DNA of 64,000 nucleotides, taken from Jiangella muralis (lineage in GTDB: Bacteria; Actinomycetota; Actinomycetes; Jiangellales; Jiangellaceae). Numbering within the stretch: the first letter of the stretch is position 1; every line of letters begins with the position of its first letter. The stretch spans positions 1-64,000 of the forward strand of contig NZ_LFXL01000039.1 in assembly GCF_001270745.1 (NCBI RefSeq). Reading direction: 5' to 3'. The position numbers and the translations under genes were made by a program. A model generated the notes under the pieces. The model had not been told where the DNA came from and did no database searches. It saw only the letters and a list, made by a program, of their open reading frames with translations. This document shows, piece by piece, positions 7,849 through 33,019 of this stretch.

Positions 7849-7851
7849 CCC

Positions 7852-9381: not shown

Positions 9382-9385
9382 GCGG

Positions 9386-13201: not shown

Positions 13202-13209
13202 GCGTGCTC

Positions 13210-14532: not shown

Positions 14533-14563
14533 GAGATCTCCCGTGATGTTCGAGGGGTTGAGG

Positions 14564-14608
14564 GTCCGGCGCCGGCGCCGGCCCGCGACTGGCGGGCCGG
14601 CGCCGGAC
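14564..14608 (-). terminator. GC-rich hairpin between the secreted sugar dehydrogenase and the binding protein
   Basis: GTCCGGCGCCGG (14564-14575) pairs with CCGGCGCCGGAC (14597-14608), and further GC pairing (CCGGCCCGC with GGCGGGCCGG) lies inside. It starts 19 bases past the stop at 14627 and ends before the importer operon start, so it probably separates the two minus-strand transcripts. Confidence 0.6.
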
Positions 14609-14626
14609 GTCGGCTGTCAGCGATGG

Positions 14627-19165: not shown

Positions 19166-19551
19166 GGCATCCTCCCGGGCGGGGTACCGGTCGATGTGAA
19201 ATAGCGCCGTGTTGATTCGCTGGTCGCCGTCATGACTTCCAGATGGAAGACGTGCTGCTCCCCGTGATCCGGATTCCGCGGAATCGCATCCGGAACGCGG
19301 GCGGTCGACCGCTGGCACCGATGCCGGTCGGTAACGCAACGGGTGTGCTCGTCAGGCGAGAACGCAGGTGTGGTCGGGTGTGCCCGAGCCGACGGGGCGC
19401 CGCGCGTCTCCGGAGTCGCGCCGCGCTGTCGCTGGCCGCCCCGCCGCACGCCTGATGGCTCGCGTTGGACCGTGCCTAGACTTAGTAAGGAAGCCTTCCT
19501 CACTATGTAACGTAAGATCACTATGTTGGTACGACACGTCGGTGTCAAGGG
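19166..19551. promoter_or_regulatory. Divergent promoter region with three palindromes
   Basis: This 386-base gap separates the secreted dehydrogenase (minus) from the ROK regulator (plus). It contains CTTCCA-GA-TGGAAG (19236-19249), the exact palindrome GATTCCG-CGGAATC (19272-19285) and a 21-base inverted repeat at 19484-19504. The density of symmetric sites suggests sugar-responsive control of one or both genes. No small gene is seen. Confidence 0.5.
19484..19504. promoter_or_regulatory. Candidate ROK operator
   Basis: AGTAAGGAAG - C - CTTCCTCACT: two 10-base arms around one base with 9 of 10 pairs matching. It is AT-richer than its surroundings and lies 47 bases upstream of the ROK gene, in the region divergent from the dehydrogenase. 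ROK repressors of this type often control themselves and the adjacent sugar genes. Confidence 0.55.
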
Positions 19552-20766
19552 GTGGCTGTGACACAACTCGGACATGGAAGCGGCCCACAGGTCCTACGTC
19601 TCATGAACTGCGCGGCGGTCCTCGCCGCCATCCGCGCCGCGGGCACTGCCCGCGTCACCGAACTCGTCCGGGCGACCGGCCTGTCCCGCCCCACGGTCAC
19701 CGCGGCGGTGTCGACGCTGATGGCCGACGGCTGGGTCGAGGAGACCGAGGCGCCCGAGATCGACGCGCCGCGCATGGGCCGACCCGCGCGCGTGCTCAGA
19801 TTCCGCGCCGACGCCAGGCACGTCCTCGGCATCGACGTCGGACCACACCGGATCTACTGCGCCGTCGCCGACCTCAGCGGGACCGTCGTCGCGCACGCGC
19901 GTCACGACGTCGCCGTGGCGAGCACCCACGCGCAACTGCTCGACCAGGTCGAGTCGACGATGCGCAAGGCGCTCGCCACGGTGCCGGTGCGGCTGCCGGA
20001 CCTCGCGGCGGTGGGCATCGGCACGCCCGGCATCGTCGACGACCAACGCGGCGCCGTCGTCCAGGCGCCGTCCGTGCCCGGATGGAGCTCGCTCGAGCTC
20101 GGCAGCCTGATCCGGCAGAGCCTCGACTGCCCCGTGCGGGTCGAGAACGACGTCAACCTCGCGGTGATGGCCGAGCGGTGGAACGGCAGCGGCGGCAACG
20201 CCGAGAACCTGATCCTCGTGCAGTGGGGCGCCCGGATCGGCGCGGCCGTGCTGATGGAGGGACAGGTACATCGCGGTGCCCATGGGGCGGCCGGCGAGAT
20301 CGGGTTCCTCGAACTCGAGGAGGAGCCGCAGGGGACGCAGGCGGACGGGCTCGGCCCGCTGGAGTCCGCCGTCGGGACGGCGTGGATCCTGCAACGCGCG
20401 CGCAGCCTCGGCGACGACGAGAGTCCCGACGCCGCCGCCGTCCTCGTCGCGGCCGCCGGTGGTGATCCGCGGGCGCTGCAGGCGATCGACGAGGCCTGCG
20501 CCAGGCTGGCCCGCGGCCTCGCCTCCTTCGTCTCCGCCATCGATCCCGAACTGGTCGTGATCGGCGGCAGCATCACGCTGGCCGGCGACACGATCCTGGC
20601 CGGGCTGCGACGCCACCTGAGCCGGCGCGCGCTCGTGCAGCCGCGGCTGGAGCTGTCCCGGCTCGGTGACGACGCGGTCGCGCTCGGCGCCGTGCGGCTC
20701 GCCCTCGCCGACGCCGAACGGCGCCTGCTCGACGTCTACGCGACGTCGGCGGCCGAGCACCCGTGA
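19552..20766 (+). CDS. ROK family transcriptional regulator
   Basis: 404 residues from GTG 19552 (GTG 19558 is also possible, better placed after AAGGGG). N-terminal winged helix (about 20-80, TELVRATGLSRPTVTAAVSTL), then the ROK sugar-kinase fold: phosphate loop GIDVGPH near 94, ENDVNLAVMAE with the catalytic-type Asp near 200, and GAHGAAGEIGFL. The zinc motif CxCGxxGC expected just after this is absent, replaced by EEEPQGTQADGLGPLES. Transcribed away from the secreted dehydrogenase and importer operon, which it probably represses in the absence of a sugar ligand. Confidence 0.85.
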   Translation: MAVTQLGHGSGPQVLRLMNCAAVLAAIRAAGTARVTELVRATGLSRPTVTAAVSTLMADGWVEETEAPEIDAPRMGRPARVLRFRADARHVLGIDVGPHRIYCAVADLSGTVVAHARHDVAVASTHAQLLDQVESTMRKALATVPVRLPDLAAVGIGTPGIVDDQRGAVVQAPSVPGWSSLELGSLIRQSLDCPVRVENDVNLAVMAERWNGSGGNAENLILVQWGARIGAAVLMEGQVHRGAHGAAGEIGFLELEEEPQGTQADGLGPLESAVGTAWILQRARSLGDDESPDAAAVLVAAAGGDPRALQAIDEACARLARGLASFVSAIDPELVVIGGSITLAGDTILAGLRRHLSRRALVQPRLELSRLGDDAVALGAVRLALADAERRLLDVYATSAAEHP

Positions 20767-20774
20767 CGGCTGCC

Positions 20775-20805
20775 TTGCCTTGACGCGCGCGTCAAGGATT
20801 ACCGT
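20775..20805 (+). promoter_or_regulatory. MerR-type promoter with 20-bp perfect operator
   Basis: A -35 element TTGCCT (20775-20780) and a -10 element TACCGT (20800-20805) are separated by 19 bases, the long spacer typical of MerR-activated promoters. The perfect palindrome CCTTGACGCG/CGCGTCAAGG (20778-20797) sits within it. Transcription from this -10 would start at about 20812, the A of the start codon, giving a leaderless transcript. Confidence 0.7.
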
Positions 20806-20811
20806 CGAGGC

Positions 20812-21183
20812 ATGCGAATCGGCGACCTCGCGCAACGCGCCGGCACCACCACCCGGGCGCTGCGGTTCTACGAGTCACAGGGCCTGCTGATGGCGCAACG
20901 CGCCCCCAACGGCTATCGCGAGTACGACGAGGACGACCTGCGGCTGGTCACCGAGATCCAGACGCTGCAGGACATCGGCTTCAGCCTCGACGACACCCGT
21001 CCGTTCGTGGAGTGCCTGCGCTCCGGGCACGCCTCCGGCGACTCCTGCGCGGACTCGATCGAGACGTACCGGCGCAAGCTCGCCGAGGTCGACGGCTACC
21101 TCGACCGCCTGACGGCGATCCGCGCCGGCATCCAGGCCAAGCTCGACGACGCCCAGGCACGGCAGCAGGGAGACCACGCATGA
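20812..21183 (+). CDS. MerR family transcriptional regulator
   Basis: 123 residues. Winged helix at 1-70 (MRIGDLAQRAGTTTRALRFY, then NGYREYDEDDLRLV), followed by a dimerisation helix (about 80-118). Between them lies VECLRSGHASGDSC with two cysteines ten residues apart (about Cys65 and Cys76), which could bind metal or sense redox state. The gene shares its last bases with a thioredoxin (ATGA overlap), so redox sensing is favoured by context. Probably autoregulated through the palindrome in its own promoter. Confidence 0.88.
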   Translation: MRIGDLAQRAGTTTRALRFYESQGLLMAQRAPNGYREYDEDDLRLVTEIQTLQDIGFSLDDTRPFVECLRSGHASGDSCADSIETYRRKLAEVDGYLDRLTAIRAGIQAKLDDAQARQQGDHA

Positions 21184-21503
21184 CGCTCACCGTCACCACC
21201 GAGACGTTCGACCACGAGGTGCTGCGCAGCGACCTTCCCGTGCTGGTCGACTTCTGGGCCGAATGGTGCCCGCCGTGTCACATGATCGCGCCCATGCTGG
21301 ACCAGTTGGCCGGTGAGCTCGAGGGCACCGTCGCCATCCGCAAGATCAACAACGACGAGCACCCCGAGGTCGGCGCACGATACCGCGTCATGTCCCTGCC
21401 CACCCTCATGCTGTTCGTCGACGGCGAGCCGGTGCAGGCGCTGGTCGGGGCGCGGCCGAAGGCCCGGCTGCTGAAGGAGCTGGAGGACGCGCTCTCGCGC
21501 TAG
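21180..21503 (+). CDS. Thioredoxin
   Basis: 107 residues, one thioredoxin domain with active site WCPPC at about 29-33 in VDFWAEWCPPCHMIAPML and the cis-proline segment MSLPTLMLF near 74. The WCPPC dipeptide instead of WCGPC is an uncommon but known variant that changes redox potential. The start overlaps the MerR stop, so the two are coexpressed; a disulfide reductant made on demand by its own sensor is the natural reading. No signal peptide, so cytoplasmic. Confidence 0.92.
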   Translation: MTLTVTTETFDHEVLRSDLPVLVDFWAEWCPPCHMIAPMLDQLAGELEGTVAIRKINNDEHPEVGARYRVMSLPTLMLFVDGEPVQALVGARPKARLLKELEDALSR

Positions 21504-21571
21504 CTGAGTGAGTCCGTTTGGTCGGGTGGACGGTTCGCCGTTGTCCCGCAGTGCGCCGCTTTGCGGCAGTG

Positions 21572-22178
21572 GGCCGTCCCCCTGCTGCCCATTTTCTCAG
21601 CCGCGGACCGCGCCTCAAGCGGAGCCCAACGGCGCTTCGCGCGGCGATGACCGCTTGACCCGCGGCACCGCGGCCCCGGGCGCTATCAGGGGGACGCGGG
21701 AAGTGCGGGCAGAGGCCCGCCCCGGGTGCACCGTTCGCCTGGCCGATGTCTGTTGGCCGTTCGTGCCGGTGCACCGTTGGGTTTGTCCTCGACTCCCGGA
21801 GCCGTCTTCGATGGCGGGAGTCGTGTTCCGGGCGCCGTTGGACGATTCTGGCCATCGAAGACGTCCCAGGCCGTCGACGTCACTCGCGTGGTGGGCACCT
21901 CACCCGCCGCAGCAACGAATGAGAGCCGTCGGCGGCGGTTATGCGGTGCTGGCGCGGGTGAGGTGCATCCGCCGCGCGTGAAGTGGCCGCCCCCCACCCC
22001 CGGGTGGCTGTTGATCATGGGCACATCGGGGTTCCCAGCGACCGGGAACCCCGATTTCGCCATGATCAACTCGGGCGGGTGGGTGTGCCGTGGCGGACCC
22101 CCGCCGCGCGAAGCGCCCACTCGGGTCCACTTGAGGCGCGGTCACGCGGCTAAGAAAATGGGCGCCAGGGGGACGGCC
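21572..22178. repeat. Non-coding element bounded by ~75-bp imperfect inverted repeats
   Basis: The left arm (21572-21645) begins GGCCGTCCCCCTG and runs through GCCCATTTTCT, CCGCGCCTCAAG and GCGCTTCGCGCGGCG. The right arm (22102-22178), read in reverse complement, repeats these blocks in the same order with a few substitutions and one-base gaps. The 607-base interior has no gene and several internal hairpins. It looks like a MITE-like or REP-cluster element that could be moved by an enzyme encoded elsewhere. Target-site duplications were not established. Confidence 0.6.
22010..22070. repeat. Double hairpin with GTTGATCATGG ends
   Basis: Outer arms GTTGATCATGG (22010-22020) and CCATGATCAAC (22060-22070) enclose an inner 12-base stem ATCGGGGTTCCC (22025-22036) and GGGAACCCCGAT (22044-22055), with a 4-by-4 internal loop between. 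The outer ends resemble those of the hairpin at 153-208, suggesting a family of dispersed palindromes. Confidence 0.65.
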
Positions 22179-22518
22179 AACCTGCGGCCACCGACGAACG
22201 CGGCGACGTCAGGCCAACGCGAATCAGTCAGCCAGCGAGGTTGGCCTCGGACCACCGAGCCGGTGGGGGGTGAGGTACGCAGACCGGCGGAACCGTGACC
22301 GGCGCGTCCCCTTTGCACGATCCCCACCTCACTGTGTGGATCCGCTGCGCCGAGTGGGGTCGATCACTGTTGCCCTGACGACAGCGACGCCACCCGCCAC
22401 GCACAGTGATCTCGCATCGATCACGCAGCGATCCCACACCGTTGCGCCATGCCTGCGGGGCGCCGCCACCGGCTGCAAAACTCGGTTCGAGTGTCGGAGT
22501 TTCGGAGACCAAGCGGAA

Positions 22519-22923
22519 TTAGGGGATGTACGGGTCCCACCAGCCGGGCTCGGGGTCGGTCTGCTCGACGACGTCGACCCATTGGCCGGCCGGGTCGACC
22601 AGCCCGAAGCGGCGCTGCCCCCACGGCTCGTCGGTCAGCGGCAGGGCGAACCGCACGCCGCCGGCTCGCAGCGCCTCGTATTCGGCGGCGACGTCGGTCA
22701 CTTGGACGGTGAGGAACGCGCCGTCGCCGGTGTGCGGGCCGGGCGACGGCGGTGCCGACGGGTGCTCCGGGCGCATGAACGCGACCGCGACGCCGCCGCC
22801 GTCCAGCAACACGAACCAGTCGGCCTCGAACACGACGGCGAAGCCGAGCCGGCCGGCGTAGAAGTCGCGGCACTCGCGCAGCCGGTCCGTGACGACGACG
22901 GCGTACCCGCCGACCACCCGCAT
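22519..22923 (-). CDS. VOC family protein (glyoxalase/bleomycin-resistance fold)
   Basis: 134 residues with paired beta-alpha-beta-beta-beta modules: VVVTDRLRECRDFYAGRLGF near the N-terminus and FLTVQVTDVAAEYEALRAGGVRF then FGLVDPAGQWVDVVEQ in the second half. The family covers dioxygenases, isomerases and antibiotic-binding proteins, so no substrate is assigned. It lies 10 bases after the methyltransferase stop and is probably cotranscribed with it. Confidence 0.8.
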   Translation of the reverse strand: MRVVGGYAVVVTDRLRECRDFYAGRLGFAVVFEADWFVLLDGGGVAVAFMRPEHPSAPPSPGPHTGDGAFLTVQVTDVAAEYEALRAGGVRFALPLTDEPWGQRRFGLVDPAGQWVDVVEQTDPEPGWWDPYIP

Positions 22924-22933
22924 GGGCCCTCCT

Positions 22934-23719
22934 TCAGCGCCGCAGCCCGCGGACCGCCCAGGCGCGCGCCGTCAGTGAGATCGAGCCGTCGGCGGCGACC
23001 GGCAGCCGGGCCCGCACCGCCGCGCGGATCGCGTCCTGCCGCGACGGCGGGAGCGTGGCCAGGTAGCCGGGGGCGGCGCCCTGCCCGCCGAGGAATGGGC
23101 GCCAGTAGTCGTCGAACGACGCGAACGATGTCGGGATCTCGATGGATCGGACGTCGACGTCGGCCAGGCCGGCCGCCAGCCACAGGTGCACCAGTGGTTC
23201 GGGCCGGCACAGCGGGAACCGGGCGCCCTCGTCCAGACCGGCGACGTCCGGGTCGACGTCCGCGGCGGCCGCCCAGAAGTGCCGCATGAGCTGCATGCCG
23301 TCGGCGTAGTCCCACACGTACGCGGCCACGACGGCGCCGGGCGCGGCCACCCGGACGAACTCCGCGGCGGCCGCCGCCGCGTCGGGCACGAAGTTCAGCG
23401 TCAGCCCGCTCACCACGGCATCGGCGGCGCCGTCGGCGACCGGCAGCGCCGCGGCGTCGCCGGCCTCGAACGTCGCGGCCGGGACCTGCTCGCGGGCGGT
23501 GCCGAGGAACCCGGTGGACGGGTCGACGCCGAGGACGGAGGCGGGCGCGGCCAGCGTCAGCACGGCCTCGGTCAGTGCGCCGGTGCCGCAGCCGACGTCG
23601 ATCCACCGAGCGCCGCCGGGGACGTCCAGCCAGGGCACGAACGCGGCGGCGACCCGGCGGCTCCACCGTCCGACGTACGCCTCATAGGCGTCGCCCTCGG
23701 CCCAGACGTCCGGCGCCAT
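22934..23719 (-). CDS. Class I SAM-dependent methyltransferase
   Basis: 261 residues with a Methyltransf_11-type fold: SAM motif WIDVGCGTGALTE at about 39-51, acidic LGVDPS after strand 2, and GLTLNFVPD at the post-II position. The acceptor is unknown. First of two genes with the VOC protein; a divergent lysozyme gene starts 32 bases away, so both promoters share a short region. Confidence 0.82.
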   Translation of the reverse strand: MAPDVWAEGDAYEAYVGRWSRRVAAAFVPWLDVPGGARWIDVGCGTGALTEAVLTLAAPASVLGVDPSTGFLGTAREQVPAATFEAGDAAALPVADGAADAVVSGLTLNFVPDAAAAAAEFVRVAAPGAVVAAYVWDYADGMQLMRHFWAAAADVDPDVAGLDEGARFPLCRPEPLVHLWLAAGLADVDVRSIEIPTSFASFDDYWRPFLGGQGAAPGYLATLPPSRQDAIRAAVRARLPVAADGSISLTARAWAVRGLRR

Positions 23720-23751
23720 GAGCCGACGATACGACCAGCCGGGCCGATAAA

Positions 23752-24471
23752 GTGACGGACGAAGGCCACGGATCGGGGGAATCGGGTATGCGCCGTCGCA
23801 TCATCGTCACCGTTTCGGTGGTGGTGGCCGCGGCGTTGAGCCTGGGCGCGGTGCTCTGGTTCGGCATCGTCCCGCACTGGCGGCCGGCGCTGGAGAACGG
23901 CGAGCGCTACGGCATCGACGTCTCCGCCCACCAGGACGAGATCGACTGGGATGCCGTCGCCGGCGACGGCATCCAGTTCGCCTACATCAAGGCCAGCGAG
24001 GGCCAGGGCTGGGTCGACGAATGGTTCGATGAGAACTGGGCCGGCGCCGCCCGGGCCGGGCTCGACCGCGGCGCCTACCACTTCTTCACGCTCTGCGCAC
24101 CGGGCGAGGCACAGGCCGAGAACTTCCTCGCCGTCGCGCCGCCCGACGACAACGCCCTGCCGCCCGTCATCGACCTCGAGCTGACCGGCAACTGCAGCGA
24201 CCGGCCGCCGGCCGACCGGGTCGCCGCCGAGGTCGACGCATTCGTGCAGCTGGTCGAGCGGGCCTGGGCCCGCGACCTGCTGTTCTACGTCCGTCCCGAC
24301 TGGGACGACGTCTACCCCGTCCGCGACGGCCTGGACCGCCGGCTCTGGGACTACCGTTTCTTCCGTCGCCCCACCGACGAACGCTGGCACGTCTGGCAGG
24401 TCAACACGTTCGCCCGGGTCGACGGCATCGACGGGCCGGTCGACCTCGACATCATGCGCAACGTCGAGTAG
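23752..24471 (+). CDS. GH25 family lysozyme
   Basis: 239 residues from GTG 23752; an in-frame ATG at 23788 just before the membrane segment is an attractive alternative. One N-terminal membrane segment (about 17-40), then a GH25 muramidase domain: YGIDVSAHQDEIDWDAVAGDG with the first catalytic-site Asp, FAYIKASEG, GAYHFF, and PPVIDLEL with the acidic pair expected to act in catalysis. It should cleave the N-acetylmuramyl bond in peptidoglycan while held at the membrane or secreted, a role in wall turnover. No wall-binding repeats. Confidence 0.87.
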   Translation: MTDEGHGSGESGMRRRIIVTVSVVVAAALSLGAVLWFGIVPHWRPALENGERYGIDVSAHQDEIDWDAVAGDGIQFAYIKASEGQGWVDEWFDENWAGAARAGLDRGAYHFFTLCAPGEAQAENFLAVAPPDDNALPPVIDLELTGNCSDRPPADRVAAEVDAFVQLVERAWARDLLFYVRPDWDDVYPVRDGLDRRLWDYRFFRRPTDERWHVWQVNTFARVDGIDGPVDLDIMRNVE

Positions 24472-24551
24472 CGGTGTGCCGGGTTTGCCCCGATGTGGGC
24501 GCGGGAAGAGTGGACTACTGACACGCAGCCTGCCACCCGAAGGGATCCGGC

Positions 24552-24965
24552 ATGATCGTGCTCGGACTGATCCTCATCATCGTTGCCGCGGCAGCGGTGG
24601 TCGTCGCCGTCATCGCCGGTGGCGACAGCGTCACGCTCAGCGCGTTCGACGTCGATCTCGACTCGCCGGTCTGGGGCGTCTTCGCCGCGGGCGTCGCCGC
24701 CGGCCTGCTCCTCATGCTCGGGATCCTGGCCATCGTTGCCGGGGTGAACCGCTCGCGGTCGCGGCGCGAGGAGATCGAGTACCTGCGCGAGCAGGTCGCC
24801 CGCCACGAGCGCAAGACCGGCCGCGAGGCCGACGAGCCCGAGGTGAGCGACTGGCTCGGCCAGGCCCACCGCGCCGCAACCGGGACCGGGACCGCCAGCC
24901 CGGCCGAGCCGGTGGCCCGCTCGGGCGCGACGTCCGGCGCCGCGCCGCTGTACCGGCAGGGCTGA
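24552..24965 (+). CDS. Small membrane protein, LapA-like
   Basis: 137 residues with two membrane segments (about 2-23 and 41-63) separated by a short loop, then a charged coiled-coil stretch SRREEIEYLREQVARHERK and a disordered Ala/Thr/Gly-rich tail. The layout matches LapA/DUF1049-type envelope proteins. It ends 6 bases before the stop of the convergent lasso kinase gene. Function is not known. Confidence 0.6.
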   Translation: MIVLGLILIIVAAAAVVVAVIAGGDSVTLSAFDVDLDSPVWGVFAAGVAAGLLLMLGILAIVAGVNRSRSRREEIEYLREQVARHERKTGREADEPEVSDWLGQAHRAATGTGTASPAEPVARSGATSGAAPLYRQG

Positions 24966-24971
24966 CGGCGC

Positions 24972-25928
24972 TCAGCCCACGCTCGCCCCGAGCCCGACGG
25001 CGTCGGCGATGGCCGGCGCGATCGCCGGCGAGAACGGCGGGCCCCACGGCACGTGCGCCACGAACACCGGGACCCGCTCGACCAGCTCGCCGGCCTGCTG
25101 GAACTGCCGGTCCAGGATCTCCGGGTCGGTCCAGCCGAGCAGCCGCGGGAACCGCAGCAACGTGATCAGCGCGTCCATGGCGCCCATCCGGGTCAGCTCG
25201 ATCGACGCGCGCTCCCGGTCGGGCAGCGGGAACACGATCCCGGCCAGCGGCACCCGGTCGGCCCGCGACGGCGCCACGCTCAGCGCGTCGCGGGCGTCAC
25301 TGGTGAGCCGGCTGGACGGGGCGACGGCGAACTGCTCGACCAGCTCGGCGGCGGACTTGCGCAGCCGCAGCTCCGTCGCGCCCAGCCGGCAGACCGGCCG
25401 GCCGTCACCGTCGTCGTCCAGGCAGAGGACGTCGTCGGTGATCAACGCGCCACCGGCCGCGCACATCAACGTCGCCATCGTCGACTTGCCCATGCCGGAG
25501 CGGCCGACGAACGCCACCGCGCCGCCGCCGACCTGCACGGCACTCGCGTGCAGCACGACGTCGCCGCGCACCGTCACGAGGAACGACAGCAGTGCCCCGG
25601 CGGTGAGGATCCCGGCGATCCCCGGGTCGGCCCCCTCGACGACGTGCACCCGCACCGAGCGGCCGTCCGGCGCGACGACGAAGTCGCAGGTCCGATAGAA
25701 CCGCAGCAGCCAGCCGCCGTCGGCCACCTGGGTGAACGTGTAGTACGGCTGGTCGGTCTCCAGGTGCGCCAGCACCCGTCCGGCCGGCGCGTGCGTCGTC
25801 AGCGGCACCGGGTCGCCCCACCGGATATCGACGTCCGGCTCCCTTTCCGCCGCGACGGCCCGTTCCTGGTGCAACGGGACCTCCGAGGCCACCCGAAGCC
25901 CGTAGAGCAGCTGCCGCTCCGTCCTCAT
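24972..25928 (-). CDS. HPr-kinase-like protein, putative lasso peptide kinase
   Basis: 318 residues. The C-terminal half is an HprK/P-type kinase domain: Walker A GRSGMGKST at about 159-167 after LHASAVQVGGGAVAFV, then ALITDDVLCLD with the catalytic-type Asp pair. The N-terminal half (FTQVADGGWLLRFY, LETDQPYYTF) matches the extension of lasso-associated kinases. Such enzymes (PadeK, ThcoK) phosphorylate the C-terminal Ser of lasso precursors, and both precursors here end in Ser. Overlaps the upstream leader-peptidase gene by 4 bases; last gene of the lasso operon. Family membership is clear; the peptide substrate is inferred from context. Confidence 0.85.
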   Translation of the reverse strand: MRTERQLLYGLRVASEVPLHQERAVAAEREPDVDIRWGDPVPLTTHAPAGRVLAHLETDQPYYTFTQVADGGWLLRFYRTCDFVVAPDGRSVRVHVVEGADPGIAGILTAGALLSFLVTVRGDVVLHASAVQVGGGAVAFVGRSGMGKSTMATLMCAAGGALITDDVLCLDDDGDGRPVCRLGATELRLRKSAAELVEQFAVAPSSRLTSDARDALSVAPSRADRVPLAGIVFPLPDRERASIELTRMGAMDALITLLRFPRLLGWTDPEILDRQFQQAGELVERVPVFVAHVPWGPPFSPAIAPAIADAVGLGASVG

Positions 25929-26380
25929 CGTGTCCCGCCCATCGCCTCGAACGTCCGGTACGTGGCCGCGCCGACCGGGTCCAGGCTGACGCCGTCGATC
26001 TCCAGCCACGCGTGCGCCTGGATCCGGCCCTCGACCTTCGCGACACCGACCCGCAGCACCGGCTTCCGGCGGCGCAGCACATGCCCGCTGACCAGCGCGC
26101 GACGCAGACAGGTGTCGCCGAACGGCCAGTGCCGCAGCACGCGCCAGGCGGCACGCAACCGCCGCCGCTCGGTCTCGGACAGCCGCGCCGTCGCATCGCC
26201 GGCCGGCATCAGCGGCGACTCCTGCTCCAACCCCAGCGGGGCGCCCAGCCAGGCGGCCAGCCGCGGCAGCCGCGCGACCCGCAGGCCGATCTCGACCGTC
26301 GCGGCGATGACGGTGGCCGCCCAGACGGACGGCCACTCGCGCAGCGGTACGGCCCGGACCAGCGTCAGGGGATTCCTCAT
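25925..26380 (-). CDS. Lasso peptide leader peptidase (B2, transglutaminase-like)
   Basis: 151 residues. The papain/transglutaminase-like core shows the catalytic Cys in DTCLRRALV (near 91), the His in AHAWLEIDG (near 124) and the Asp in LDPVG (near 136), the triad of lasso B2 proteins that remove the leader before cyclisation. The N-terminal 80 residues are the usual Arg/Leu-rich region. The start at 26380 overlaps the cyclase stop by 4 bases and the stop overlaps the kinase start. It needs the separate PqqD-like protein at 28202 to bring in the leader. Confidence 0.88.
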   Translation of the reverse strand: MRNPLTLVRAVPLREWPSVWAATVIAATVEIGLRVARLPRLAAWLGAPLGLEQESPLMPAGDATARLSETERRRLRAAWRVLRHWPFGDTCLRRALVSGHVLRRRKPVLRVGVAKVEGRIQAHAWLEIDGVSLDPVGAATYRTFEAMGGTR

Positions 26381-27591
26381 TCGGTACCTCGCGGAGGGCT
26401 GGGCTGCGCGGCCAGCCAGGCCTGCTGCAGCAGCGTGCCGGACAGGGTCGAGGGCCGGTCGGACAGCCAACCGGCCCGCAGCGCCTCGGGATCGACGAGT
26501 TCGGCGTCCACGCCCGAGCCGTCCCAGTCGCGGGCGAACGCGCGTGTCGGCTCGCCCATGTAGGCGCGGTCGAAGCTGGCCTTGCTGGACCGGCGCAGGA
26601 TCTCGTCGGGCAGCACATCGGAGAAGAGGATGCGCATCAGCGCGGTGCGCCCGGCGAACCCCCACCGGCCGCCGAACCGGGTGAGCGCGGCCAGGAACCC
26701 GGTGTCGAGCAGCGGATGCCCGACGGCGACGTCGAACTCGGCGCCCAGCGCGGCATAGTTGGCGACGACGGCGTCGACGGCGCGGCGGTGCCGCACCCAC
26801 CACAGCGACCGGTCCCACGCCAGCGGCTCGGACCCCTCGTCGGCGGCGAGCAGCCGGCGGTGCCGGCGGGCGACCGCCGGACGCAGCCACGGCTGCTGGG
26901 CGTCGCCAGTCATCTGGCGGCGCACCCGGAACGCGCGCACCGGGCCCGGCGCCAGCGCGGCGGCGGTCGCGGCCAGCAGTTCCGGACGGGGCCGACGCCG
27001 CTTGCGCACCAGCAGCGTCACCGGCGTCGTGCGGCGCGGCCCGATGATCTCGTCGCCGCCCTCACCGGTGAGGACCGACCCGCCCGCGACGGTCTCGAAC
27101 AGCCGGTCCTTGACGTGGAACGGCGGCGGCCAGAGCACGCCGCGACGCAGCAGGCTGGCCCGTGCGCCGTCGCCCAGCAGGTCGCTCTCGCCCCGGATCG
27201 GCAGCCGGACCCACTCGGTCAGACCGAGGTGATCGACGACCAGCCGTTGCCAGTCCGCCTCGTCGGCGTCGGGAACGTCCGGGTAGACCTCGGTGACGGG
27301 GACCGGGTCGGCGTGCCCCTCACGCCGGGCCAGCGCCGTCGCGGCCGCCAGGATGGCCGACGAGTCCCGCCCGCCGGAGAACGAGACGAAGCAGGGCGCG
27401 CGCAGCAGCGCCGCGCGCAGGGCGTCGTCGAGCGCCTCGCGTGGAGTCGCGGCCGTCTCCGGATACGGTGCCACCGGCAACGAGCCGTGCACCCAGGACG
27501 TGGCGATCTCGAACGAGGAAAGCCGGAAATAGCGCGGTGTGGAATGCGCCGGATCGGCGCCCATTCGCACTGCGGCGGAATGTAGATTCAC
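26377..27591 (-). CDS. Asparagine-synthetase-like lasso cyclase (C protein), short form
   Basis: 404 residues from GTG 27591, chosen for the GGGGGAG ribosome site 6 bases upstream; GTG 27612 would add 7 residues. The AANH synthetase domain starts by residue 50, with ATP PP-loop SGGRDSS at 72-78 and EVYPDVPDADEADW and GEGGDEIIGPRR further on. It should adenylate the Asp9 side chain of the core and close the lactam. Typical lasso cyclases are near 600 residues, with an N-terminal glutaminase-like domain of about 200; that domain is missing here, and no lost frame for it is seen upstream, where the precursor genes lie. Confidence 0.82.
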   Translation of the reverse strand: MNLHSAAVRMGADPAHSTPRYFRLSSFEIATSWVHGSLPVAPYPETAATPREALDDALRAALLRAPCFVSFSGGRDSSAILAAATALARREGHADPVPVTEVYPDVPDADEADWQRLVVDHLGLTEWVRLPIRGESDLLGDGARASLLRRGVLWPPPFHVKDRLFETVAGGSVLTGEGGDEIIGPRRTTPVTLLVRKRRRPRPELLAATAAALAPGPVRAFRVRRQMTGDAQQPWLRPAVARRHRRLLAADEGSEPLAWDRSLWWVRHRRAVDAVVANYAALGAEFDVAVGHPLLDTGFLAALTRFGGRWGFAGRTALMRILFSDVLPDEILRRSSKASFDRAYMGEPTRAFARDWDGSGVDAELVDPEALRAGWLSDRPSTLSGTLLQQAWLAAQPSPPRGTE

Positions 27592-27620
27592 GCGATGCTC
27601 CCCCGACACCACGAGCGAGA

Positions 27621-27658
27621 CACGGCGGAGTCACCGATGACCGGACGACTCCGCCGTG
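27621..27658 (-). terminator. Attenuator-like hairpin between precursor and cyclase
   Basis: CACGGCGGAGTC (27621-27632) and GACTCCGCCGTG (27647-27658) form a perfect 12-bp stem with a 14-base loop. It begins 16 bases after the second precursor stop and lies just upstream of the cyclase start. Partial termination here would keep precursor mRNA in excess of enzyme mRNA, an arrangement known from other lasso operons. No U-tract follows. Confidence 0.7.
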
Positions 27659-27674
27659 CCCCTGGTTGACGGCG

Positions 27675-27818
27675 TCAGGAGAGGCCGCCACCGCCCGGCG
27701 GCTTGTCGTTCCCCCACTTGAACCAGAGGAACTGGTCCGACGAGCCCTGGCCGCCCTGCGCGAGTGTCAACTCACGGACGGATCCGACCTCTTCCAACAC
27801 GGGTGGCTGATACGCCAT
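27675..27818 (-). CDS. Lasso precursor peptide 2
   Basis: 47 residues. Leader MAYQPPVLEEVGSVRELTL carries the lasso pattern P-x-L-x3-G with Thr18 two places before the cleavage site. The predicted core is 28 residues: ring AQGGQGSSD, closed between Ala1 and Asp9, then a tail with aromatic residues (F, W, F, W) suited as steric plugs, a GNDKPP turn and the end GGGGLS. A GGGGGG run 8 bases upstream of ATG 27818 is the ribosome site. Leader nearly identical to precursor 1. Core boundary is inferred from the Thr(-2) rule. Missed by ordinary length cut-offs. Confidence 0.85.
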   Translation of the reverse strand: MAYQPPVLEEVGSVRELTLAQGGQGSSDQFLWFKWGNDKPPGGGGLS

Positions 27819-27863
27819 GGCCGTGCCCCCCTTCTACGGAGCCTCACTTGCGGAGGCGATAAC

Positions 27864-27889
27864 GGCAGCGCATCCACCAACGCGCTGCC
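27864..27889 (-). promoter_or_regulatory. Hairpin between the two precursor genes
   Basis: GGCAGCGC (27864-27871) and GCGCTGCC (27882-27889) pair perfectly around a 10-base loop, within the 178-base gap between the precursors. It may stabilise the mRNA of precursor 1 or weaken readthrough into precursor 2. Confidence 0.45.
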
Positions 27890-27996
27890 TTCTAACAGGC
27901 CGAGATCGTACCGCCGGAATGCCGTTGTCGGAGGCTTTTGCGCTCATTTCCTCGATCAACCGTTTCCGCCCGGTCCGTTCCGGCCGACCGGGGGCG

Positions 27997-28131
27997 TCAG
28001 GACAGCACGCCACCGGGGTCGTTGTTGTAACGGAACCACTGGACCTGGTCGGATCGACCGCGACCGCTCGCGGCGAGTGTGAGCTCGCGGACCGAGCCGA
28101 TCTCCTCGAGCGTCGGTGCTTCGTAGGCCAT
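27997..28131 (-). CDS. Lasso precursor peptide 1
   Basis: 44 residues. Leader MAYEAPTLEEIGSVRELTL, differing from precursor 2 at only four positions, has the P-x-L-x3-G motif and Thr18 at -2. The predicted 25-residue core has ring AASGRGRSD (Ala1 to Asp9) and a tail with Trp, Phe and Tyr, then NNDPGGVLS. Two ring Arg make it more basic than precursor 2. The last residue is Ser, as needed by a C-terminal lasso kinase. GTGGGG stands 5 bases before ATG 28131. It follows the PqqD-like gene by 70 bases and precedes precursor 2. Confidence 0.85.
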   Translation of the reverse strand: MAYEAPTLEEIGSVRELTLAASGRGRSDQVQWFRYNNDPGGVLS

Positions 28132-28201
28132 CAGAGCCCCACTTTCGTTTCTGCGGATGGATGAACTGCCGGACCGGCGGTATTCGCCGCCGGGACGGAC
28201 A

Positions 28202-28465
28202 CTAGGAATCGGCGGTGTCGAGAAGGTTCCGCTCGCGCAGCATGGCGACGAACGTCTCGGTATCCGCCGTGGCTTGGTCGGCCGGAATGCCGTACTCCTC
28301 GACGAGGCCGTCGGCGAGTTCCGCGGTGGTGCGTTCCTCGGACAGCAGCCGCATGATGGTCGAGCCCGCGGCGTTGGTCTTCAGATACGTGGACGACGAG
28401 AGATCCAGAATGACCGTCTCACCGTCGATCTCGCGCCAGCTGACGCTATTGGTGCGCAGTTTCAT
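28202..28465 (-). CDS. PqqD-like leader-recognition protein (lasso B1)
   Basis: 87 residues, the RiPP recognition element fold: three beta-strands (VSWREIDGETVILDLSSSTYLKTN) then helices with NAAGSTIMRLLSEERTTAELADGLVEEYG. It binds the precursor leader and presents it to the B2 protease. First gene of the lasso operon, upstream of the precursors rather than between cyclase and protease as in many loci. The start is 46 bases from the cysN stop, so the promoter must lie in this short gap or within cysN. Confidence 0.88.
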   Translation of the reverse strand: MKLRTNSVSWREIDGETVILDLSSSTYLKTNAAGSTIMRLLSEERTTAELADGLVEEYGIPADQATADTETFVAMLRERNLLDTADS

Positions 28466-28511: not shown

Positions 28512-29762
28512 TCAGCTCGCCGAGGTGATCATGCCGGCGCCCACGGTGCGGTTGGTGGCCTCGTCGATGAGGATGAAGCCGCCGGTCTGCCGGTTGCGGC
28601 GGTACTCGTCGGCGAGCAGCGGGACGGTGGTGCGCAGCCGCACGCGGCCGATGTCGTTGAGGCCGAGTTGCGTGGCGGTGTCGTCGCGGTGCAGCGAGTT
28701 GACGTCGAGGCGGTACTGCAGTTCCTTCACCAGCGCCCGTGCCGACCGCGTGGTGTGCTTGATGGCGAGCTTCTGCCCCGGCGCCAGCGGCGTCTCAGCC
28801 ATCCAGCAGACCATGGCGTCGATGTCCTGCGCGACCGCCGGCTGGTTGTGCGGACGGCAGATCATGTCGCCACGGGAGATGTCGATCTCGTCCTCCAGCC
28901 GGACGGTCACCGACATCGGCGCGAACGCCTCACCCACCGGGCCGTCGGCGGTCTCGATGCCGGCGATGCGGGTGGTGAACCCGCTGGGCAGCACCATGAC
29001 CTCGTCGCCGGCCTTGAGGACGCCGCCGGCGACCTGGCCGGCGTAGGCGCGGTAGTCGGTGCGCTGCAGCGACTGCGGCCGGATGACGTACTGCACAGGG
29101 AAGCGGACGTCGACGAGGTTGCGGTCGCTGGCGATGTGCACGTGCTCGAGGTGGTGCAGCAGCGACGGCCCCTCGTACCACGGCATGTTCGGCGACCGGC
29201 TGACGATGTTGTCGCCGTGCAGGGCGGAGATCGGGACGACGGTGAGGTCGGGGACGTCGAGCTTGGTCGCGAACGAGGAGAATTCCTTCTCGATGCCCTC
29301 GAACACCTCCTGCGACCAGTCGACGAGGTCCATCTTGTTCACCGCGAGCACGAGGTGCGGCACCCGCAGCAGCGACACCAGGAAGGCGTGCCGGCGGCTC
29401 TGCTCGACCATCCCCTTGCGGGCGTCGACCAGCACGATGGCGAGGTCGGCCGTCGAGGCGCCGGTGACCATGTTGCGGGTGTACTGGATGTGCCCGGGGG
29501 TGTCGGCGATGATGAACTTGCGCCGCGGCGTGGCGAAGTAGCGGTACGCCACGTCGATGGTGATGCCCTGCTCGCGCTCGGCCCGCAGGCCATCGGTGAG
29601 CAGCGAGAGGTCGGTGTACTCGTCGCCGCGTTGCTGGCTGGTGCGTTCGACGCTCTCCAGCTGGTCGGTGAAGATCGCCTTCGAGTCGAACAGCAGCCGC
29701 CCGATCAGCGTGCTCTTGCCGTCGTCGACGGAGCCGGCGGTGGCGAACCTGAGCAGGTCCAT
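28512..29762 (-). CDS. Sulfate adenylyltransferase subunit 1 (GTPase)
   Basis: 416 residues. GTPase motifs: GSVDDGKST at 10-18, DTPGH near 90, NKMDLVD near 145; then two beta-barrel domains as in elongation factors. CysN uses GTP hydrolysis to drive APS formation by CysD in the cytoplasm. There is no C-terminal APS kinase fusion. The start ATG shares a base with the cysD stop. Confidence 0.93.
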   Translation of the reverse strand: MDLLRFATAGSVDDGKSTLIGRLLFDSKAIFTDQLESVERTSQQRGDEYTDLSLLTDGLRAEREQGITIDVAYRYFATPRRKFIIADTPGHIQYTRNMVTGASTADLAIVLVDARKGMVEQSRRHAFLVSLLRVPHLVLAVNKMDLVDWSQEVFEGIEKEFSSFATKLDVPDLTVVPISALHGDNIVSRSPNMPWYEGPSLLHHLEHVHIASDRNLVDVRFPVQYVIRPQSLQRTDYRAYAGQVAGGVLKAGDEVMVLPSGFTTRIAGIETADGPVGEAFAPMSVTVRLEDEIDISRGDMICRPHNQPAVAQDIDAMVCWMAETPLAPGQKLAIKHTTRSARALVKELQYRLDVNSLHRDDTATQLGLNDIGRVRLRTTVPLLADEYRRNRQTGGFILIDEATNRTVGAGMITSAS

Positions 29763-30670
29763 CAGAAGTAGCCTTCCTTCTTCCGGTCCTCCATCGCGGC
29801 CTCGCTGACGCGATCGTCGCCCCGGGTGGCGCCACGCTCGGTGAGCCGGGTGGCGGCGACCTCCTCGATCACCTTCTCGACGGTGTCGGCGTCGGAGCGC
29901 ACCGCCGCGGTCAGCGACGCGTCGCCGACGGTGCGGTAGCGGACCGTCGTGACGAACGTCGTCTCGCCCTCGCGTGGGCGGCAGAACTCGTTGTTCGCGA
30001 ACAGCATGCCGTCGCGCTCGAACACCTCGCGCTGGTGCGCGTAGTAGATCGACGGGACGGCGATCTCCTCGCGCTGGATGTAGTGCCAGACGTCCAGCTC
30101 GGTCCAGTTCGACAGCGGGAACACCCGGATGCTCTCGCCCAGGTGGATGCGGCCGTTGTACAGGTTCCACAGCTCCGGGCGCTGGTTCTTCGGGTCCCAC
30201 TGGCCGAAGTCGTCGCGGAAGGAGAACACCCGCTCCTTGGCCCGTGCCTTCTCCTCGTCGCGGCGGGCGCCGCCGAACAGCGCGCTGAACCGGTGCTTCT
30301 CGACCGCCTCCAGCAGCACCGGCGTCTGGATGCGGTTGCGCGAGCCGTTCGGCTCCTCGGCCACCAGCCCGCGCTCGATGGCGTCGGGCACGGACGCGAC
30401 CACGAGGTTGACGCCCAGCTCGGCGACCCGGCGGTCGCGGAACTCCAGCACCTCGGGGAAGTTGTGCCCGGTGTCGACGTGCATGACGGGGAACGGCATC
30501 GGGGCCGGCCAGAACGCCTTCTCGGCCAGCCGGAGCATGACGATGGAGTCCTTGCCCCCGGAGAACAGCAGCACCGGGCGCTCCAGCTCGGCGGCGACCT
30601 CGCGGAAGACGTGCACCGCCTCGGCCTCGAGATAGTCGAGCTGCGAGAGCTGGTACTCGTGGATCGTCAT
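29762..30670 (-). CDS. Sulfate adenylyltransferase subunit 2
   Basis: 302 residues. PP-loop SGGKDS at 38-43 and the CysD-specific segments HVDTGHNFPEV, FGGARRDEEKARAKERVFSFRD and IYYAHQREVFERDG. It transfers AMP from ATP to sulfate to make APS. Overlaps the cysQ stop by 4 bases upstream and the cysN start downstream, so the three are one operon. No APS reductase or kinase gene is next to it. Confidence 0.94.
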   Translation of the reverse strand: MTIHEYQLSQLDYLEAEAVHVFREVAAELERPVLLFSGGKDSIVMLRLAEKAFWPAPMPFPVMHVDTGHNFPEVLEFRDRRVAELGVNLVVASVPDAIERGLVAEEPNGSRNRIQTPVLLEAVEKHRFSALFGGARRDEEKARAKERVFSFRDDFGQWDPKNQRPELWNLYNGRIHLGESIRVFPLSNWTELDVWHYIQREEIAVPSIYYAHQREVFERDGMLFANNEFCRPREGETTFVTTVRYRTVGDASLTAAVRSDADTVEKVIEEVAATRLTERGATRGDDRVSEAAMEDRKKEGYF

Positions 30671-31428
30671 GCGGACCTCACGGGTTCGGCGACGGCGGCC
30701 AGGAGCGCGTCGGCGAGCTCCGGGCGGGCGACGAGCAGGTCGGGGAGGTACGGGTCGGCCTCGTTGTACCGCAGCGGCGACCCGTCGACGCGGCTGGTGA
30801 AGAGGCCGGCGGCGCGGGCGACGGCCACCGGCGCGGCGGAGTCCCACTCGTACTGGCCGCCGGCGTGGACGTACGCGTCGGCCTCGCCGCGCACGACGGC
30901 GGCGACCTTGAATCCGGCCGAGCCCATCGGCGCCAGCTCGGCGCCCAGGGCGGCCGCGGCTCGCTGGGCGGCGACGGGCGGACGGCTGCGGCTGACGGCG
31001 ATGCGCGGCGGCGCACCCTCGGCCGGGCCGGGCGGGACGACGGCGGCGGGGTCGCTGGTCAGCGTGGCGCCGAGGCCGGGCAGCGCGACGGCGCCGGCGG
31101 CCAGCTCGCCGTCCTGCCACAGCGCCACGTGCACCGCCCAGTCGTCGCGGCCGTCGCCGAACTCGCGGGTGCCGTCGAGAGGGTCGATGATCCAGACCCG
31201 TCGGGCGGTCAGGCGCTCGACGGTGTCGGGCGCCTCCTCGCTGAGGACGGCGTCGCCGGGCCGCTGGTCGGCCAGCGCGGCGGCGAGGAACCGGTGCGCA
31301 GAGCGGTCGCCCGCGTCGCGCAGCGCCTGAGTGCCGGCGGCCGGATCGTGGTCGCGGCGCAGCGCGAGCAGCAGCGCGCCCGCCTCGGTGGCGAGGCGGG
31401 CGGCCAGGATCGCGTCAGTGGATGCCAC
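30667..31428 (-). CDS. 3'(2'),5'-bisphosphate nucleotidase (CysQ/inositol phosphatase family)
   Basis: 253 residues from GTG 31428, placed after AGGAG. Metal-binding motifs of the family: SEEAPD near 70, WIIDPLDGTREF near 87-98 and EWDSAAPVAVARAAG near 195. CysQ removes the 3'-phosphate from PAP left by sulfotransferases or PAPS reduction. A longer frame to 31782 has no family content. First gene of the cysQ-cysD-cysN operon, which suggests that PAPS is used by a sulfotransferase somewhere in this genome. Confidence 0.87.
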   Translation of the reverse strand: MASTDAILAARLATEAGALLLALRRDHDPAAGTQALRDAGDRSAHRFLAAALADQRPGDAVLSEEAPDTVERLTARRVWIIDPLDGTREFGDGRDDWAVHVALWQDGELAAGAVALPGLGATLTSDPAAVVPPGPAEGAPPRIAVSRSRPPVAAQRAAAALGAELAPMGSAGFKVAAVVRGEADAYVHAGGQYEWDSAAPVAVARAAGLFTSRVDGSPLRYNEADPYLPDLLVARPELADALLAAVAEPVRSA

Positions 31429-31546
31429 GGATCTCCTCGAAGCCGGTCTCGAACGACCCAGCCTAGGGTGAACCCGCCCGGAATCACTCGCTCGCCCATC
31501 ATCCGAGACGCCGCGTCCAGCATCCGGGCATCCCGGGAGAGTGCCC

Positions 31547-33019
31547 CTAGCGCCGGTCGGCGCGGTGCGGAACGACGTCGCACGTCTCGTGGAACCAGGT
31601 GAGCAGGCGATCCCCGAGCTCCGCCCGCACCTGGGCGAGGCCGGGATCGTCGATCCGGTTGACCAGTTCTCCCGGGTCGGCGCGGAGGTCGTAGAGCTCG
31701 TCCTTCTCGTAGAGCCTGCGGACGTACTTGTGGTCCCGGGTCCGGCACATGACGGCCTTGGTGTGTTCCGGACCGGGGCCACGTTGGAGCTCGAGCCGGG
31801 GCCAGTACCGGCTGTCCTCCGGCCGGCCGCCCGGCGGGGTGCTCTGCAACTCCATCGCCTGCTCCTCGCCGGCGAGCCGGCCGCCTTCGCTGAACACCGC
31901 GTCCCGGTGGTCGTCAGCCGCGCCGGTGAGGAGCGGAACCAGCGACCGGCCGAAATGGGTGTGCTCGGGCGTCAACCCGACCAGATCCTCGATCGTCGCC
32001 GGCACGTCGACCAGCTCGACGAGGGCGTCGGCGATGCCGGGCCGCACCGGTGTCGACCTCGGCGGCTTGATCACCAGCGGCACGCGGGTCAGGCAGTCCT
32101 CGAACGTGTTCTGGGTCTTCTCCACCAGCCCGTAGTCACCGGTGAAGTCCCCGTGATCGGGAAAGACGAACACGGCTGTGTCGTCGTAGCTGCCGGCGCG
32201 GCGCAGCGCGTCGAGGACCAGCCCCAGCTGGTGATCGACCCGGGCGCACATGCCGTAGTAGGTGGCCCGCAGTTCGGTCCACTGATCGTCGCTCCAGGCC
32301 TCGAGCCGCTGCCGGTCGCGGATACCTGAGAGGATGCTCGGCTTGCCGGCCCACTCCGGCTCCGGACGCCGGTCCGGCATCGCGGCGCGATCGATCATGG
32401 AGAACCACGGGTCCTCGACGGCGTACGGCGGGTGCGGATACGTCAACGGCAGGTAGACGCAGAACGGCTGGTCCCGGTCCCAGGACGTGATGAGGTCGAT
32501 CGCCGCCTGGACGTGCGCCCAGTCGCTGTCCGGGTACGAGTGCCCGTCGGGGACGTCGAGCCTGCCGACGTGGAAGCCGTAGAGGTCGGGCGTGCTCGCC
32601 GGGTCCCGCCGCGGGCCGAACATCGGCAGGGTGTCCGGCGGCACGGCGTGCTTGACGTCGCAGTAGTCGTCGAAGCCGTTCTGGGCCGGGACGAGGTCGT
32701 TCTTGCCGCCCCACCAGACGAAGTAGCCCGCGTCGCGCAGCGACCGGAGCAGGTTCGGCTCGTCGGGCTGCAGCATGTGATGCATGGTGCGATGCCCGCG
32801 CACATGCGGATACCAGCCGGTCATGAACGAGCACCGCGACGGTGTGCACACCGGGTTCTGGGCGAAGGCGCCGGTGAAAGAAACGGCGTCCTCGGCGGCC
32901 AGCCGATCGAGCGTCGGTGTCACCGCGGCCGGGTTTCCCGCGTGGCCGAGGACGTCCCCGCGCCATTGGTCCGGGTTGAAGATCACGAGGTTCGGCGGAC
33001 GCGTCGGACGGTGGGTCAT
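31547..33019 (-). CDS. Sulfatase
   Basis: 490 residues, type I sulfatase. The formylglycine motif CTPSRCSFMTG (Cys at about 59) matches C-x-P-S-R for the Cys-type, needing the formylglycine-generating enzyme. Metal ligands are in NPDQWRGD near the N-terminus and FPDHGDFTGDYG near 320. No signal peptide, so the substrate is desulfated in the cytoplasm or the protein leaves by another path. Last gene of an eight-gene operon; start overlaps the SGNH hydrolase stop by 4 bases. It should release sulfate from an imported sugar fragment. Confidence 0.9.
   Translation of the reverse strand: MTHRPTRPPNLVIFNPDQWRGDVLGHAGNPAAVTPTLDRLAAEDAVSFTGAFAQNPVCTPSRCSFMTGWYPHVRGHRTMHHMLQPDEPNLLRSLRDAGYFVWWGGKNDLVPAQNGFDDYCDVKHAVPPDTLPMFGPRRDPASTPDLYGFHVGRLDVPDGHSYPDSDWAHVQAAIDLITSWDRDQPFCVYLPLTYPHPPYAVEDPWFSMIDRAAMPDRRPEPEWAGKPSILSGIRDRQRLEAWSDDQWTELRATYYGMCARVDHQLGLVLDALRRAGSYDDTAVFVFPDHGDFTGDYGLVEKTQNTFEDCLTRVPLVIKPPRSTPVRPGIADALVELVDVPATIEDLVGLTPEHTHFGRSLVPLLTGAADDHRDAVFSEGGRLAGEEQAMELQSTPPGGRPEDSRYWPRLELQRGPGPEHTKAVMCRTRDHKYVRRLYEKDELYDLRADPGELVNRIDDPGLAQVRAELGDRLLTWFHETCDVVPHRADRR

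Follow-up and report, generated by a model that had tools for sequence, protein, structure and literature searches.

Twin lasso-peptide precursors, a predicted serine kinase and a putative displaced export unit in Jiangella muralis

The 64,000-nucleotide stretch of Jiangella muralis DNA analysed here (the window), part of a 7.27 Mb genome in 76 contigs, carries a chromosomal cluster that probably makes two class II lasso peptides from two precursors and tailors both at the C-terminal serine. Jiangella is a genus of soil actinobacteria, and its family was represented by a set of 22 Jiangellaceae genomes. The operon has the order B1-A1-A2-C-B2-K and runs from 28465 down to 24972, entirely on the minus strand; a putative exporter gene (D) and a nucleotidyltransferase gene (N) lie outside it. 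The original prediction, made from the sequence of the window, had recognized the six frames of the operon and assigned them the names B1, A, A, C, B2 and K of a lasso-peptide locus. Both the frames and this reading were confirmed, as A1, A2 and B2 score above NCBI lasso cut-offs and B1 and C match broader Pfam families. The boundaries that it drew at 24972-28465 proved too narrow, since an exporter and a probable tailoring gene are found at 4664-7848. Also absent from it were the C-terminal Ser of both cores and a hairpin at 27617-27662, while K had been named but given no role, and masses had been predicted for dehydrated cores and not for phosphorylated ones.

What is observed comprises the genes and how well they are conserved, the occurrence of D alongside lasso genes, the facing orientation of K and D and the terminal Ser, and the fold and residues of the kinase are predicted. 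All of the chemical steps are inferred, from protein families and residues, and so are export and a role for the hairpin. K, aided by B1, would first phosphorylate the last Ser of both precursors while these are still linear. B1 would bind the YxxPxL leader and pass the precursor to B2, which would cleave behind residue -1, next to Thr(-2). C would then join the Ala1 amine to Asp9, thereby closing the ring. The phosphate may be extended by N with a sugar or a nucleotide, and D would export the product. The hairpin after A2 would probably yield more precursor mRNA than enzyme mRNA.

Two precursors and the enzymes that would process them

Judged from its sequence, the locus is a lasso-peptide system. 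B1 (28202-28465, 87 aa) is a PqqD-like recognition element (RRE) for ribosomally synthesized and post-translationally modified peptides (RiPPs) and the predicted leader binder. It matches PF05402 PqqD at 60.0 bits (cut-off 23.4) and the lasso-specific model NF033530 lasso_PqqD_Strm with an E value of 4.9e-13 at 49.1 bits, under that model's cut-off of 70; the nearest solved chains by sequence are TbiB1 (5v1u, E 1.3e-7, the closest), 9x8z_B and TfuB1 (6jx3). The macrolactam synthetase predicted for C (26377-27612, 411 aa) is asparagine-synthetase-like and matches PF00733 at 60.1 bits (cut-off 21). Its start codon is uncertain, one candidate being a GTG near 27591 that is preceded by GGGGGAG. 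C was found in 12 of the 22 family genomes, at 58-96% identity in the 11 besides the window's own, and the stop inside the match of two family C genes is an ordinary last codon. B2 (25925-26380, 151 aa), a predicted transglutaminase-like leader peptidase, matches NF033537 lasso_biosyn_B2 at 58.4 bits (cut-off 33) and PF13471 at 47.4 bits (cut-off 26), and the Cys, His and Asp that had been pointed out in it correspond to Cys91, His123 and Asp134, which are invariant in 15/15 aligned proteins.

Between B1 and C lie the two short precursor genes. A1 (27997-28131, 44 aa) consists of the leader MAYEAPTLEEIGSVRELTL and the 25-residue core LP1, AASGRGRSDQVQWFRYNNDPGGVLS, while A2 (27675-27818, 47 aa) consists of the leader MAYQPPVLEEVGSVRELTL and the 28-residue core LP2, AQGGQGSSDQFLWFKWGNDKPPGGGGLS. 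Both exceed the cut-off of 19 for NF033521 lasso_leader_L3, at 34.3 bits for A1 and 33.0 bits for A2. The leader features predicted for them, P-x-L-x3-G and Thr(-2), are present, the former in the fuller form Y-x-x-P-x-L-x3-G, and both precursors have in common Thr(-2), Gly4, Gly6, Asp9 and a terminal Ser. The Asp at core position 9 fits the proposed Ala1-Asp9 rings. Neither core contains Cys, which would place LP1 and LP2 among class II lasso peptides.

The same leader is found in 22 precursors from 12 Jiangellaceae loci (window included), of which 10 contain both types. Across eight Jiangella loci the LP1 core has a mean identity of 95% and a pooled ratio of nonsynonymous to synonymous substitution rates (dN/dS) of 0.06, whereas the LP2 core varies in length and has a mean identity of 78% and a dN/dS of 0.48. 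In the same loci the dN/dS values are 0.09 and 0.06 for the A1 and A2 leaders and 0.18-0.41 for the four enzymes, including 0.28 for K; all of these figures are descriptive and carry no tests, as the pairs are non-independent. LP1 is under strong purifying selection and LP2 far less so. This pattern of conservation gives good grounds for regarding both short frames as translated genes. The joint presence of two precursors raises the question of whether LP1 and LP2 form a two-component pair whose members must act together. Such a pair would be consistent with the retention of both in 10/12 Jiangellaceae loci, with their common leader type and enzymes and with the very different evolution rates of the cores. 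We nevertheless regard it as quite improbable, because only an A2-type precursor was found in genome G017 (locus L022) and only an A1-type in G016 (locus L024), the second precursor not being found in either, and because lasso clusters with multiple precursors are already known (PMC13381572).

The hairpin at 27617-27662 on the minus strand, between A2 and C, has a predicted folding energy of -38.8 kcal/mol (z -5.7) and lacks a U tract. To place it in a broader context we considered a chosen set of 27 loci, made up of the window, L014-L024 and a further 15 whose order is A-C-B2-K or similar, skipping precursors that do not end in Ser. A fold with z of -2.7 or below follows the last precursor in 24 of these (the exceptions are L031, L033 and L063). 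Where there are two precursors, such a fold comes after the first in only 1/10 (L023). The stem sequences vary from locus to locus. Given the missing U tract, its likely use would be partial termination or protection of the 3′ end of the precursor message. The hairpin thus probably sets the ratio of precursor to enzyme mRNA.

The gene order had been described as not the common one, a claim that stands in comparison with kinase-less actinobacterial clusters and falls within the kinase branch itself. There, B1-A(-A)-C-B2-K is the commonest order, shared exactly by 17/45 kinase loci (window not counted), with five more carrying B1 on the other strand. Among the kinase-less controls with a readable order, C precedes B1 in seven loci (L127, L131, L134-L136, L139 and L143), whereas in L148, L149 and L156 it comes after B1-B2. 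An Amycolatopsis/Prauserella group uses B1-B2-K-A-C or B2-K-A-A-C. In five loci from Prauserella and Amycolatopsis (L047, L049, L051, L061 and L071) lasso C is matched twice, at a distance of about 5 kb, and three of the five show two precursors, as if there were one cyclase per precursor. Different lasso B2 genes also occur elsewhere in Jiangellaceae (G005:C4:646804-647154, G012:C1:4811203-4811571, and in G006, G010 and G020), so the family has a second lasso system.

A predicted kinase and the terminal serine

K (24972-25928, 318 aa) is a kinase of the predicted HPr-kinase/phosphoenolpyruvate carboxykinase (PEPCK) fold, and its predicted substrates are A1 and A2, each at the C-terminal Ser. 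Its motifs comprise H127 within LHAS, the P-loop GRSGMGKS and D165-D166, and an alignment of 31 K proteins shows no variation at H127, K148, D165 or D166. Lasso kinases need these H/K/D/D residues and act on the linear precursor, and the phosphate site is the C-terminal Ser in paeninodin, ThcoA and SyanA; in pseudomycoidin a K-dependent phosphate is likewise carried on the last Ser (PMC9266682, PMC10368454). With a Ser at the end of both cores and the H, K, D and D of lasso kinases in K, phosphorylation of this terminal residue is likely. Calculated masses are 2718.301 Da for the LP1 lasso, 2798.267 Da for its phosphorylated form and 2960.320 Da with an added hexose; the corresponding values for LP2 are 2859.336, 2939.303 and 3101.356 Da. 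Of 396 genomes sampled from the phylum, J. muralis included, 18 contain a K match at E <=1e-20 and 6 one at E <=1e-60, while lasso B2 was present in 98 of 393 genomes sampled from the class.

The association between K and a terminal Ser extends well beyond the family. In 45 loci with a full-length K (E <1e-60; window not counted and duplicate loci L025-L028 dropped), 52/55 precursors end in Ser, with exceptions in L037, L043 and L052; 20 of the 55 come from Jiangellaceae. In 28 kinase-less control clusters the figure is 1/14, a difference with a Fisher p of 2e-10 when relatedness is ignored. The controls were drawn from 40 regions, leaving out 10 with a K match plus two without one, L161 and L165. 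L161 is truncated by the end of its contig, and no precursor was found in it. Visual selection of control precursors yielded 14 in 13 of the 28 loci and none in the others, and low-scoring or misplaced candidates in L128, L132 (the second), L142, L145, L149 and L152 were dropped.

Several observations pull in the other direction. K falls under the cut-off of every HPr-kinase model (PF07475 at 22.1 against 33.3 bits, TIGR00679 at 19.2 against 240 and TIGR04352 at 26.3 against 200), and hence it is not classed as an HPr kinase proper. The predicted structure of K, with a predicted local distance difference test (pLDDT) score of 95.9, has PEPCKs as its best fold matches, over the whole length (Z 17.2, 265 residues, root-mean-square deviation 4.0), and no HPr kinase is among the best 50 matches listed in either fold search. 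A sequence profile of K does find the HPr kinases 1ko7 and 2qmh at E ~1e-4, among other P-loop matches, so that the relation to HprK is drawn from sequence matches and motifs rather than from fold matches. HprK and PEPCK are structural relatives. The single lasso-cyclase match of C, to the cyanobacterial model NF033535, reaches just 18.1 bits against a cut-off of 525, and the products and enzyme activities are predictions from the genes. The terminal Ser is itself not confined to loci with K: it is present in 7/7 precursors from six loci of the same C clade in which no K was detected, although five of these six are cut by a contig end, with L088 being a full 13 kb. Similarly, L165 (genome G082), 12 kb without K and encoding a close C relative, has two precursors that both end in Ser, and adding it would bring the control to 3/16. 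In loci with only a weak kinase match, 10/19 precursors end in Ser. Since Ser-ending precursors occur in clade members with no K detected, a Ser at the end of the core may be a sign of clade membership no less than of the kinase.

These data bear most directly on an alternative in which both lasso peptides of the cluster stay unphosphorylated, K has become a degenerate or a regulatory relative of HPr kinases, and N (perhaps also D) serves a neighbouring polysaccharide pathway. The model scores of K are in keeping with it, as is a terminal Ser in 9/9 precursors of clade members without detected K, and the L165 result raises its odds while lowering those of tailoring by K. Yet 31 K proteins all retain the four catalytic residues, and K is under purifying selection. 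On balance we consider this alternative unlikely, with a small but appreciable chance of being correct. A second alternative is that K phosphorylates a Ser within the ring, Ser3 or Ser8, rather than the terminal one. There is precedent in BsfK, another lasso kinase, which phosphorylates Ser3 of BsfA (PMC10368454), and this too counts against a terminal site, as Ser3 is present in LP1 and Ser8 in LP1 and LP2 alike. The last Ser, however, is present in 22/22 family precursors, whereas Ser8 is present in 19/22 and Ser3 in 10/22; LP2 of the window lacks Ser3, which does occur in the A2 core of L021. Phosphorylation of a ring Ser thus appears improbable, and tailoring at the terminal Ser remains our preferred explanation.

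A different group of loci (L072, L074, L078-L081 and L085) contains a second and more distant kinase-like gene, which is encoded on the other strand from C and has the precursor downstream of it. The precursor ends in these loci are mixed (Ser, Arg, Leu, Asn, Phe), and this is possibly another kind of lasso tailoring.

A predicted exporter and a nucleotidyltransferase outside the operon

The predicted lasso-peptide exporter D (5845-7848, plus strand) is an ABC exporter (PF00005) that is convergent with K and 17 kb from it. An orthologue of D, at 72-94% identity and more than 980 bits, occurs in the same 12 family genomes as lasso C, and none was found in the 10 lasso-negative family genomes, where the best match listed reaches 289 bits at 37% identity (G006). 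This distribution (12/12 positive versus 0/10 negative genomes, p 1.5e-6) is not that of a single branch, as genera g1, g2 and g5 each include genomes with and genomes without lasso genes. The lack of a D orthologue in 10/10 lasso-negative genomes also speaks against the alternative of unphosphorylated peptides with D in a polysaccharide pathway.

The arrangement of the two genes points in the same direction. K and D are convergent, tail to tail, in 29/34 loci that hold both. In the family they face each other in all seven stretches holding both, with gaps, measured between the ends of matches, of 0.8 kb (G017), 1.7 kb (G018), 2.1 kb (G011), 4.6 kb (G007), 5.2 kb (G008), 5.4 kb (G016) and 16 kb (G013); the window's gap, taken from coordinates, is 17.1 kb, and in G002 the two genes are on separate short contigs. 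Outside the family they face each other in 22/27 loci (not in L035, L037, L045, L067 and L091), and 18 of these 22 have a gap of 21-264 bp. This widespread compact arrangement looks ancestral, and the lineage of the window would then have gained about 15 kb of unrelated genes between K and D. The spacer (7849-24971), which divides D and N from K in the window and its nearest relatives, holds genes for sugar metabolism, regulators, a GH25 protein and a methyltransferase, and its genes are largely common to G014, G005 and G013.

N (4664-5845, plus strand), directly followed by D, is the sole PF14907 nucleotidyltransferase match of the genome, at 132.7 bits (cut-off 31.2), and is a probable phospho-Ser modifier, less certain than D. 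It lies 19 kb from K in the window and adjoins D in 10/12 family genomes (in G013 across a contig break). N adjoins K in two Occultella loci. Among eight distant loci whose K neighbours were compared with Pfam, an ABC transporter was found in five (L034, L036, L044, L069 and L091) and PF14907 in L029, while in L032 and L040 neither was found in the frames tried beside K. N occurs in 12/12 lasso-positive family genomes and in 1/10 lasso-negative ones, G001, and this last occurrence, together with the position of N apart from D and at 50-52% identity in G007 and G012, counts against its inclusion; the separation and divergence in G007 and G012 make the membership of N less sure than that of D. 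The nearby sugar-nucleotide genes (PF00483, PF01370), beside which G001 keeps N without lasso genes, would be expected if N belonged to a polysaccharide pathway and the lasso peptides were unphosphorylated. In G001, N adjoins cysN, with no trace of lasso genes between the two. The N genes of G007 (C60) and G012 (C1:859108-860202) belong to the two Jiangella genomes with the most deviant LP2 cores (ALNGWGSSD and ALNGFGSSD), and N has perhaps been replaced there.

Genes resembling cysN, cysD and cysQ (28512-31430; sulfate activation, named by eye) lie directly upstream of B1 and are kept in most Jiangellaceae loci. A link to sulfate activation was considered and rejected: among the loci compared, cysN matches occur only in those of Jiangellaceae, and in L017, L018, L022, L023 and L024 they are at least 1 kb from B1; the proximity was taken as one of location rather than of function. 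The frame at 7852-8589 (245 aa), which follows D, is kept next to D in G014 and G012; it was rejected as a cluster member, having no Pfam match and being found beside D in only two (L189 and L201) of 15 stretches. A 1563-aa frame at 14627-19318, with matches to glucose/sorbosone dehydrogenase and 3-keto-disaccharide hydrolase, and a sulfatase at 31547-33760 suggest that the region around the lasso genes is one of polysaccharide degradation.

Relation to known systems and wider meaning

The closest described likenesses are paeninodin from Paenibacillus dendritiformis (PadeK) and the ThcoK and SyanK systems, which, like the window, combine split B1 and B2, C, an HprK-like kinase with H-K-D-D and a precursor ending in Ser (PMC9266682, PMC8498205). 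Phosphorylation in paeninodin-type systems takes place on the linear precursor, and the likeness of their kinases to the window's K is one of described features rather than of sequence comparison (PMC9266682, PMC8498205). In the accessible portions of these two articles, paeninodin-type systems are described from Firmicutes and Proteobacteria, whereas the window is from Actinomycetota (PMC9266682, PMC8498205). Unlike those systems, the window has two precursors, the order B1-A-A-C-B2-K, and a pump and nucleotidyltransferase 17-19 kb away. Pseudomycoidin from Bacillus pseudomycoides (PsmK, PsmN) resembles the window in having both a kinase and a nucleotidyltransferase gene, and there a phosphate and a hexose are carried on the last Ser (PMC9266682). 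N differs from PsmN in lying outside the operon, and the two are likened by type of gene, not by sequence or PF14907 membership. The Bsf system of Bradymonas sediminis is likewise a lasso cluster with an HprK-like kinase, BsfK, which is assisted by B1; its precursor has Ile(-2), a C-terminal Asp and the phosphate on Ser3, in contrast to Thr(-2) and a C-terminal Ser in the window (PMC10368454). Kinase-less actinobacterial clusters resemble the window in their separate B1 and B2, YxxPxL leader and Thr(-2), and differ from it in gene order, in having no kinase found nearby, and in that only 1/14 of their precursors ends in Ser.

A relationship to another RiPP class, for example the linear polyphosphorylated peptides (LPPs), was also weighed. 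LPP clusters of Bacillota have an RRE, an HprK-like kinase, a nucleoside triphosphate (NTP) transferase and an MsbA-like transporter (PMC13381572), a set of genes reminiscent of that described here. These clusters, however, have no macrolactam synthetase and use a signal-peptidase-like protease, while C and B2 are present at 12/12 family loci and the cores have Asp9. That the enzymes serve such a class is therefore highly improbable, and a lasso-peptide system with tailored termini is the better account.

A search limited to an open-access library turned up no article describing lasso clusters of Jiangella or lasso kinases of actinobacteria, although supplements of genome-mining studies may list them. 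In the accessible parts of papers that name both Jiangella and lasso peptides, the lasso passages concern other genera, and the main text of the J. gansuensis genome paper does not contain the word "lasso". The phosphorylated kind of lasso peptide probably occurs here in a phylum not listed for such systems in the available portions of two reviews (PMC8498205, PMC9266682). Full-length relatives of K are found beside lasso genes in Jiangella, Phytoactinopolyspora, Occultella, Terrabacter, Nocardioides, Isoptericola, Amycolatopsis, Prauserella and others, and with K relatives spread across so many Actinomycetota an entire branch of products that may be tailored is opened to testing. The locus also illustrates how an exporter and a tailoring gene can escape a search confined to the operon, both of which are recovered by co-occurrence across genomes.

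As a more speculative view, which as a whole we think unlikely, this would be an Actinomycetota branch of phosphate-tailored lassos in which one operon does two jobs: the near-invariant LP1 would act on a fixed partner, such as the organism's own regulator or envelope, and the faster-changing LP2 would act against competitors that themselves change. Both would bear a phospho- or phosphosugar-Ser made by K and N and would leave through D, which would still be tied to the operon in function though split off from it by 17 kb. In any case, two precursors under contrasting selection within one operon offer a natural setting in which to study the purpose of lasso peptides.

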